A stretch of 64,000 bases of DNA from Natrarchaeobius oligotrophus (GTDB lineage Archaea; Halobacteriota; Halobacteria; Halobacteriales; Natrialbaceae), in the NCBI RefSeq assembly GCF_003841465.1, contig NZ_REFZ01000006.1:62001-126000 (forward strand), written 5' to 3'. Positions 43,214-45,954 of the stretch are shown one piece after another. Each line of letters starts with the position of its first letter. Within the stretch, counting starts at the first letter, position 1. The notes under the pieces were generated by a model that worked only from the letters and a program-made list of their open reading frames with translations, was not told the DNA's origin and did no database searches. Position numbers and translations under genes: made by a program.

Positions 43214-43337
43214 ACACACCTTCACTAGGGCGGTCCGTATAAAAGAGTCGAATCAGCGAATAAAGAATCGTGATGTTCGACAATCGACGAATACCCCTTT
43301 CGCATTGCTTTTAATGGTAGGCCACAGTGGGTTCTGT

Positions 43338-45593
43338 ATGGGACTGGACGAGGACGCACTCGAGTACCATCGGACGGATCCGCCGGGAAAGATCGAGATT
43401 TCGACGACGAAACCGACGAATACACAGCGCGACCTCTCGCTCGCTTACTCCCCGGGCGTGGCCGCACCGTGTACGGAGATCGACGAAGACGAAACGGAGG
43501 CCTACACGTACACGGCGAAAGGAAATCTCGTAGGCGTCGTTTCGAACGGGTCCGCGGTGCTCGGACTCGGAGACATCGGAGCGCAGGCGTCGAAGCCCGT
43601 CATGGAGGGCAAGGGCGTGCTGTTCAAGCGCTTCGCGGATATCGACGTCTTCGACATCGAACTCGACGAGGCCGACCCGGAGAAACTCGTCGAGGCCGTC
43701 AAGATGATGCAGCCGACGTTCGGCGGCATCAACTTAGAGGACATCAAAGCGCCGGAGTGTTTCACGATCGAGGAGCGACTGCGCGAGGAGATCGGCATCC
43801 CTGTCTTCCACGACGACCAGCACGGGACAGCGATCATCTCCGGCGCGGCGCTTCTCAACGCTGCCGACATCGCGGGCAAGGAGCTCGACGATCTCGAGAT
43901 CGTTTTCTCCGGAGCGGGCGCGAGTGCGATCGCGACGGCCCGGTTTTACGTCTCGCTCGGCTGTCGAAAGGAAAACGTCACGATGTGTGACTCCTCGGGA
44001 ATCATCACCGAGGCCCGCGCGGACCGTGGCGACGTCAACGAGTACAAACAGGAGTTCGCGCGCGACGTGCCCGAGGGCGATCTCGCTGACGCGATGGAGG
44101 GCGCGGACGTCTTCGTCGGCCTCTCGATCGGCGGCCTCGTCTCACAGGAGATGGTCCAGTCGATGGCGGACGATCCGATCGTCTTCGCGATGGCCAATCC
44201 GGATCCGGAGATCGGCTACGAGGAGGCGAAGGCGGCGCGCGACGACACCGTCATCATGGCAACCGGCCGATCGGACTATCCGAACCAGGTCAACAACGTC
44301 CTCGGATTCCCCTTCATCTTCCGGGGCGCACTCGACGTGCGCGCGACCGAGATCAACGAGGAGATGAAAGTCGCCTGTGCCGAGGCCCTCGCCGACCTCG
44401 CCCGCCAGGACGTGCCCGACGCGGTCGTCAAAGCCTACGGCGACGATCCGATCCAGTACGGACCCGATTACATCATTCCGAAGCCCGTCGATCCGCGCGT
44501 TCTCTTCCGGGTCGCGCCGTCGATCGCGGAAGCGGCGATGGAGTCCGGAGCCGCCCGCGTGGAGATCGACCTCGACGAATACGAAGAGGAACTCGAGGCC
44601 AGACTCGGCAAGTCCCGCGAGATGATGCGGGTCGTGCTCAACAAGGCCAAGAGCGATCCGAAGACCGTCGCGCTCGCGGAGGGCGAAAACGAGAAGATGA
44701 TCCGAGCCGCCTACCAGATCCAGGAACAGGGAATCGCGATGCCGATTCTCATCGGCGAAGAGAGCGAGATCCGTCGAACGGCGGCGAATCTCGGACTCGA
44801 CTTCGAGCCGCAGGTGGCCGACCCCTCGGTCGGCGACTACGAGGAGTACGCAGATCGACTTCACGAGCTTCGCCAGCGCAAGGGGATCACCCGGACCGAA
44901 GCGGGCGAGCTCATCGAGCGCGACACCAACTACTTCGGGAGCGTGATGGTCGAACAGGGCGACGCCGACGCCCTCATGACCGGGCTCTCGCACCATTACC
45001 CGTCCGCGCTCCGGCCGCCGTTGCAGGTGATCGGAACCGCCGAGGACGTCGACTACGCCGCCGGGGTCTACCTGCTGACGTTCAAAAACCGCGTCATCTT
45101 CGTCGCCGACGCCACGGTCAACCAGTCGCCCGACGAGGACGTGCTCGCGGAGGTGACCAAACAGACGGGCAAACTCGCTCGCCGGTTTAACGTCGAACCG
45201 CGCGCCGCGTTGCTCTCGTACTCGAACTTCGGTAGCGTCGACAACGAGAACACTCGAAAGTCACGACGTGCCGCGAAGATGCTCCAGAACGATCCGGAAG
45301 TCGACTTCCCGGTCGACGGAGAGATGCAGGCCGACACCGCCGTCGTCGAGGACATCCTCGAGGGGACGTACGGCTTCTCTGAACTCGACGAGCCGGCAAA
45401 CGTCCTCGTCTTCCCGAACCTCGAGTCGGGCAACATCGGCTACAAGCTGCTCCAGCGACTCGGCGGCGCGGACGCCATCGGACCGATGCTCGTCGGAATG
45501 GACGAGCCGGTCCACGTCCTCCAGCGCGGCGACGAGGTCAAGGACATCGTGAATCTGGCTGGCGTTGCGGTCGTCGACGCACAACAGGAGTAG
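43338..45593 (+). CDS. maeB: NADP-dependent malic enzyme with phosphate acetyltransferase-like domain
   Basis: A 751-residue protein of the MaeB type. The malic enzyme half (about 1-425) has [15 protein letters not shown] (about 36-50), [22 protein letters not shown] (about 67-88, with the catalytic Lys shortly after), [11 protein letters not shown] (about 156-166) and a Rossmann [13 protein letters not shown]. The second half (about 430-751) is a phosphotransacetylase domain, which in MaeB is regulatory. It decarboxylates malate to pyruvate. The ATG at 43338 gives the usual start [11 protein letters not shown] tandem repeat block begins 1 bp after the stop. Confidence 0.95.
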
Positions 45594-45594
45594 C

Positions 45595-45658
45595 GCGGTT
45601 CGGAGCGAACGCGGTTCGGAGCGAACGCGGTTCGGAGCGAACGCGGTTCGGAGCGAAC
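45595..45658. repeat. 16-bp tandem repeat, four perfect copies
   Basis: GCGGTTCGGAGCGAAC four times in direct head-to-tail array, starting 1 bp after the maeB stop. A partial copy (GCGGTTCG) recurs at 45881-45888, after the second array. Confidence 0.95.
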
Positions 45659-45876
45659 GAAGTGAGCGAGAACCGCGAAGAAGCGAGCGGGGAGGGACGA
45701 CCCGCGAGCCAGACGAAGTGAGCGAGAACCGCGAAGAAGCGAGCGGGGAGGGACGACCCGCGAGCCAGACGAAGTGAGCGAGAACCGCGAAGAAGCGAGC
45801 GGGGAGGGACGACCCGCGAGCCAGACGAAGTGAGCGAGAACCGCGAAGAAGCGAGCGGGGAGGGACGACCCGTGAG
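45659..45876. repeat. 56-bp tandem repeat, three full and one partial copies
   Basis: Units begin at 45659, 45715, 45771 and 45827. The unit starts GAAGTGAGCGAGAACCGC and ends CGCGAGCCAGAC; the fourth breaks after CCCG. It contains GAACCGC, the complement of the GCGGTTC in the 16-bp repeat. 56 is not a multiple of 3, so it does not encode a periodic protein in any frame. It sits between malic enzyme and a PQQ-propeller gene and fills the gap. Confidence 0.95.
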
Positions 45877-45954
45877 GAGCGCGGTTCGCCACGATGCGGT
45901 CCGAAACCGGCAGGATTTTTCTACTCGACCCACCGTAGACGAACGAGAAGGGGC

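Follow-up and report, generated by a model that had tools for sequence, protein, structure and literature searches.

A tandem-repeat block at the maeB stop codon of Natrarchaeobius oligotrophus as a copy of a palindromic module dispersed among haloarchaea

Introduction

The closest described systems are miniature repeats of haloarchaea and of bacteria. In Haloquadratum walsbyi, the SMR-A repeats are ~110 bp long, encode no transposase and lie inside the palindromes of other mobile elements; they have their own inverted terminal repeats, and their targets are the palindromes of PATEs and IS605-type elements (PMC3119063). In bacteria, the GTAG-tagged REP/BIME sequences are short extragenic hairpins dispersed in the genome (PMC3733652, PMC2817692, PMC6006769).

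Here we analyse a block of tandem repeats that directly follows maeB in a window of 64,000 nucleotides from the haloarchaeon Natrarchaeobius oligotrophus. The block resembles REP/BIME in being built on a 36-nt extragenic hairpin, within the criterion of a 20-40-bp imperfect palindrome, and the window copy, located after maeB, has GTAG (GAG-TAG) at the hairpin foot. However, the tag is not conserved in copies of the module found in the loops of inverted-repeat elements (TAG before 2/43), the order of half-units is usually L..LR..R rather than alternating in orientation, and copy number in the N. oligotrophus genome is low (6 core matches at 3 mismatches). A search for the Y1 (IS200/RAYT-type) transposase domain PF01797, run on 12 genomes, matched seven of them; the N. 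oligotrophus genome (99.4% complete) had no match. With no Y1 transposase found and few copies in this genome, the module is placed outside the RAYT-type REPs.

The likeness to SMR-A, at the level of described features, is that sister copies of the module sit in the loop of an 84-bp MITE, although the window copy does not; the module differs in that its host element looks IS630-type and in having a second context, at stop codons, with tandem growth. The sister copies, inside a ~84-bp inverted-repeat element with a TA-type duplication, also recall IS630/Tc1-type MITEs, but the window copy has no such ends and so falls outside that class. Like a minisatellite or VNTR, the block consists of perfect tandem units whose number is probably variable; unlike one, it has two complementary unit types in a fixed order and relatives across the genome and the family.

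Results

Layout of the block

The coordinates of the features are collected in Table 1. The maeB product matches the Pfam domains malic, Malic_M and PTA_PTB, its C-terminal end is alike in relatives with and without the block, and the following same-strand gene codes for a PQQ-type beta-propeller protein. An earlier note on this DNA had described two repeat types starting at the maeB stop: four perfect 16-bp units, three full and one partial 56-bp units, and then the 16-bp motif again. TRF recovered both periods (16 bp x 4.1 copies, 100% matches, 45594-45659; 56 bp x 3.9 copies, 99% matches, at the tabulated interval), and these rows scored highest among the window's 25 tandem-repeat rows (433 and 132; next 77). 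The position stands, the first unit beginning at the base immediately past the TAG, as do the four perfect units and the three full 56-bp units; the fourth of the latter is nearly complete, diverging at its end only, and what recurs of the 16-bp motif is its start, limited to the first 9 bases. The two types are both present, yet they are not separate: one forms the left half and the other the right half of a single palindromic module. Each 56-bp unit contains GAACCGC, complementary to GCGGTTC of the 16-bp unit as the note had pointed out, and every such unit holds the right arm GAACCGCG plus a second small hairpin. The latter (GCGGG-GA-G-GGA-C-GA-CCCGC) follows the same plan as the core and is repeated in the later units. 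All unit counts of the block come from a draft assembly of 69 contigs.

Table 1. Features of maeB and of the repeat block that follows it (positions in the window).
Feature	Position	Strand	Basis
maeB, malic enzyme fused to phosphotransacetylase-like domain	43305..45593	+	ORF; start codon per ORF listing
maeB stop TAG	45591-45593	+	
Left-arm array, four perfect 16-bp units CGCGGTTCGGAGCGAA	45594..45657	+	sequence, TRF
Right-arm array, 3.9 x 56-bp units	45657..45876	+	sequence, TRF, unit comparison
Core 36-nt hairpin, innermost left and right arms	45642..45677	+	pattern match, covariation
Second hairpin of the first 56-bp unit	45687..45705	+	sequence, pairing in fold
9-base partial left arm CGCGGTTCG past the array	45880..45888	+	sequence
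T5 tract, possible native maeB terminator	45916..45920	+	alignment; counterpart at block-free G002 site

The expectation that single strands of the block would fold was borne out. The stretch 45591-45925 folds at -140.4 kcal/mol, against a mean of -119.8 (sd 4.2; z -4.9) for dinucleotide shuffles, of which 0/100 were as good. In the RNA fold the left arms pair with the right arms in a nested manner, and the 56-bp units form a small side hairpin. Because the T5 tract beyond the block has a counterpart at the block-free site of G002, the block would lie inside the maeB 3′ UTR and, as the note had proposed, would be transcribed together with the gene.

The module core is a conserved covarying hairpin

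In the window copy the core hairpin consists of an 8-bp stem, a tandem GA/GA and a GAA triloop. Hairpins that contain tandem sheared G·A pairs and a GNA triloop are very stable, also in DNA. Folded alone as DNA, the core scored modestly (z -2.05, with 6/200 shuffles as good). For an analysis of covariation, all 36-mers matching the 11 positions unpaired in the fold were collected from 1.86 Mb of sequence, yielding 38 unique 36-mers, among which five evident chance matches (<=7/12 pairs) were kept. In this set 89.0% of cells were paired, against 75.3% after shuffling; changes occurred on both sides at 12/12 pairs, and double-change cells numbered 58, against 14.9 in shuffled sets. None of five covariation measures was reached in 500 shuffles (0/500), and when the structure was slid along the sequences 20-50% of cells paired. 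The module core was thereby shown to be a conserved covarying hairpin. Allowing one mismatch gave 142 unique 36-mers, which fell into noise (92, with 1-6 pairs) and hairpins (40, with 10-12 pairs), with 10 in between at 7-9 pairs. Among 49 sequences, conservation is strong at GA/GA and at the first and last bases of the GNA triloop, whereas the middle loop base varies.

A scan for hairpins of the form GA-NN-GNA-NN-GA found 38 in the N. oligotrophus genome (G000) and 46 in G014, against 19 and 15, respectively, for the reversed control. Requiring perfect flanking stems of at least 4 bp left one in G000 and five in G014 (control 0 and 0); the matches are few because real stems carry internal mismatches.

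The block belongs to a dispersed repeat family

As the note had anticipated, relatives of the block exist elsewhere in its own genome and in other haloarchaea. The own genome holds ten block matches at E <= 0.01, on contigs C1, C3, C4, C5, C6, C9, C19, C20 and C24 (two overlapping). With 2 mismatches allowed, the core pattern is present in 77/125 genomes of the family and in 88/392 genomes drawn from the order, with counts per genome ranging from 0 to 47 (the maximum in G113); the reversed pattern had no match in the family and order genomes. Related arrays are carried by the Natrialba magadii plasmids pNMAG01 and pNMAG02, and in the latter, the record of which is described as complete, four left arms stand with several right arms. 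The module has no match in Rfam, and the literature searched, the coverage of which was partial, contained no description of it. The block is not a lone minisatellite but a single copy of a palindromic module dispersed among haloarchaea, and the view of a solitary tandem-repeat block gives way to that of an array at one locus of a repeat family.

Sister copies lie inside an inverted-repeat element

In G003, G066 and other genomes, the module lies within the loop of a ~84-bp inverted-repeat element (TATAGTAGCCACTG ... CAGTTGTTACTATA), which occurs both bare (~84 bp) and in longer, module-carrying forms of 114-330 bp (for example 114, 124, 172, 198, 301 and 330). A left end was recognisable at 15/20 loci in G003, and the terminal inverted repeats were present at 17/17 loci fetched from G066. 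Left ends counted in eight chosen genomes numbered 131 in G003, 87 in G092, 82 in G066, 61 in G113, 35 in G108, 32 in G122, 25 in G095 and 3 in the own genome. Three bare 84-bp copies without the module were seen in the own genome (L123 on C18, L131 on C9 and L139 on C14), and at L144 and L146 the module is inverted inside the loop. Matches to the MITE were found in 39 plasmid records and in no phage record.

Many flanks of these sister copies, though not of the window copy, read c|TATAG..CTATA|g. A 1059-bp IS630-type (DDE_3) element has MITE-like outer bases and is itself inserted in a MITE: at L313 (G003:C3, 933-1991) it contains two overlapping reading frames, sits in a MITE end at CTAG and has TA on both sides of the insertion (a duplicated TA). 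We infer from these sequences that the MITE may be moved by an IS630-type transposase. The own genome has eight DDE_3 matches; at the four of these loci that were fetched, MITE-like ends were absent (3 mismatches allowed). The window copy has no terminal inverted repeats in its flanking sequence.

A second kind of copy lacks inverted repeats and sometimes abuts stop codons

The context of the module was sampled at one locus in each of 29 of the 77 core-positive genomes. A left inverted repeat was present at 7/29 loci and absent at 22/29. Among the 22 copies without it, seven start 0-1 nt past the stop of a gene on the same strand, and all seven of these stops are TAG, against a background use of 99/562 (genes of G014 and G000); the seven represent four kinds of gene only, encoding an M29 peptidase, the thermosome, a purH-type product and an acyl-CoA dehydrogenase. 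The upstream gene is on the same strand for 17/20 copies without inverted repeats (P 0.003; the 20 being those of the 22 with a called upstream gene) versus 3/7 with them. Altogether, modules abut the stops of maeB, thermosome, etfA, RNB-domain, enoyl-CoA hydratase, acyl-CoA dehydrogenase, M29 peptidase (two genomes) and purH-type genes. In the own genome, the C3 copy follows the RNB-domain gene, with stop TGA, and the C19 copy follows etfA, with stop TAA; together with the window copy they are of this second kind, without inverted-repeat ends.

At the maeB stop, the element was found in 6 of 44 family genomes inspected by eye. Five of them (G000, G003, G007, G039 and G126) carry the same core or its nested form, and G014 carries a hairpin of the core's plan with a different stem, the core itself occurring further downstream. 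A different palindromic element occupies this site in G010, G015, G107, G115 and G116, and neither type is present in 33/44. Two congeneric genomes, G001 and G002, lack the block; the maeB C-terminus of G002 is 96% identical. In Haloterrigena salina a further chain of palindromes follows maeB; at the G014 maeB 3′ end (L036) the gene is directly followed by various palindromes in a chain, and TAG precedes several of them.

The preference for TAG is mixed overall, with no clear preference at maeB, where the stops are 4 TAG and 2 TAA with the module and 14/33 TAG with no element. TAG precedes 11/54 occurrences scored as lacking an inverted repeat, versus 2/43 with one; of the 54, about seven match by chance and eight, from G066, adjoin an N.

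Duplication of the gene tail was also considered as the origin of the window block and rejected (score 18, shuffled maximum 22). For this check the last 70 bp of the gene were aligned downstream at 23 stop-adjacent loci, with the module or other palindromes; tail duplication was clear at four (L032, L297, L057 and L069), and L036 gave a weak 18-bp match. At L032 (G015), L297 (G107) and L069 (G054), another palindromic element, T-rich and ending GAAAAAGGT, lies at or near the stop, and roughly the final 42-60 bp of the gene recur behind it as a duplicate. At L057 (G035), a 23-bp duplicated gene tail accompanies the module.

Array structure and probable growth in place

Within each array of the own genome the units are identical, except for one base in one of the five C24 units. 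Unit length differs by locus (56 bp in the window; 53 bp in C3, C19, C24 and C9; 58 bp in C4), as do the sequences. All left arms precede all right arms in 72/83 arrays, and it is because left arms usually come before right arms that the block can fold as one nested hairpin. The numbers of left and right arms correlate (rho 0.71 over 83 arrays, those of the same genome not being independent) and are equal in 47/83, of which 29 are trivial 1+1 pairs. Homogeneity within arrays, differences between them, and the order and counts of arms fit local growth better than arrival of a finished array, so that both series, the 16-bp and the 56-bp one, probably arose by multiplication at the site. Self-nesting in its simple form does not account for all of this growth, since counts are unequal in 36/83 arrays, many equal ones are 1+1 and 11/83 depart from the plain L..LR..R order. 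The end of C19 and the start of C24 both lie inside an array of one 53-bp unit, and to judge by this unit they are probably one locus after etfA, split by the assembly.

Hairpins at thermosome stop codons

In 22/61 family genomes (14/29 genera), which are related and so not independent, a hairpin with 7 or more net pairs begins 0-4 nt past the thermosome stop. The same measure at control offsets of 20 and 40 gave 1/61 and 0/61, and genes sampled from two genomes gave a background of 20/562. Two or more unrelated palindromes occur at the thermosome stop, one module-like and one of the CTAAATTTTGC...GCAAAATTTAG type, and unrelated palindromes share this stop-abutting position across different genera (L333-L393). 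A shortened form, GAGGTTC-GAA-GAACCTC, was seen at the thermosome gene in G107 and G005. With a module pattern that was written after part of the data had been seen, the stop was TAG at 7/8 matched ends versus 7/53 others (P 6e-5); with the plain hairpin measure it was TAG in 9/22 versus 5/39 (P 0.024). The own genome has no hairpin at its thermosome stop. Hairpins of at least 7 net pairs starting 0-1 nt after stops show no general excess, occurring at 5/268 genes in G014 and 4/294 in G000, where other offsets give 2-7 and shuffles 2.6 and 2.2.

Discussion

We favour, by a modest degree of confidence above even, an explanation in which the block represents a dispersed palindromic module resembling the REP- or SMR-type miniature mobile repeats in behaviour. 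On this view a copy lacking terminal inverted repeats reached the maeB stop and multiplied there, and it is mainly selfish or neutral. The hairpin copy would have inserted at a site where an insertion costs the cell little; slippage during replication, or unequal recombination, at the hairpin could then have repeated the 16-bp left half and the 56-bp right half; and the array would persist mainly as a selfish or neutral element, becoming a strong hairpin in the maeB 3′ UTR. Counting against this explanation, no enzyme that inserts copies without inverted repeats was found, the PF01797 search of the own genome giving no Y1 transposase.

A less probable but still serious reading is that the block is a selected 3′-UTR element, in which a hairpin at the stop protects, pauses or trims the 3′ end of a housekeeping mRNA and mobile palindromes supply the raw material. 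The enrichment of thermosome hairpins at the stop over the offset positions, the two or more unrelated palindrome types found there, the stop-abutting modules after many housekeeping genes, the strand bias of the upstream genes and the retention of pairing while stem sequence varies all speak for selection, and the thermosome recurrence in particular suggests selection rather than pure selfishness. Yet the distribution is patchy, at few maeB stops and at none in the congeneric G001 and G002, the own thermosome gene has no hairpin, and the 562 genes scanned show no general excess over shuffles or other offsets. Moreover, the pairing is symmetric for DNA, the G-T mismatches that selection on RNA would favour outnumbering A-C by 15 to 9 in the set of 49 sequences, Rfam has no match, and the relatedness of the thermosome genomes tempers their count. 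A broader proposal, which we judge less likely than not, is that haloarchaea use mobile palindromes as exchangeable 3′-end modules: in many genera, unrelated families would land exactly 0-4 nt past the stops of one and the same set of housekeeping genes, bring along or prefer a TAG stop, and be kept as mRNA 3′-end structures. In archaea, T tracts rather than hairpins generally signal the end of transcription.

It is improbable that the block was delivered as cargo of an IS630-type MITE whose inverted-repeat ends were then lost. The same module does occupy MITE loops within the genus (G003), the own C9 and C4 copies retain remnants of both ends, and the G003 locus L085 abuts a stop with its left end gone and its right end kept; but in the sequence inspected no left end is visible at the window copy, at the maeB copies of G003 and G007 or at those on the own contigs C3 and C19, and all of these except C19, whose contig stops before that side is reached, also show no right end. 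Nor would erosion be expected to halt at a stop codon across different genes and genera. Inflation or collapse of the unit counts by short-read assembly is unlikely as the whole explanation, and we give it very little credence: the assembly is a draft, C19 and C24 break within one array, and G066 scaffolds show repeated halves around an N, yet similar arrays occur in the N. magadii plasmid records described as complete and at the same maeB position in G003 and in G007, which belongs to another genus. We return to the mobile-repeat explanation, under which the block would be a mainly selfish REP-like palindrome that is tolerated, and perhaps used, as a 3′-UTR hairpin.

The finding joins minisatellites, MITEs and 3′-UTR hairpins, which are usually treated apart in archaea. 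If the preference for stop codons is true, it would offer a testable route from selfish palindromes to gene 3′ ends, and it may explain why a draft haloarchaeal assembly breaks at such sites.
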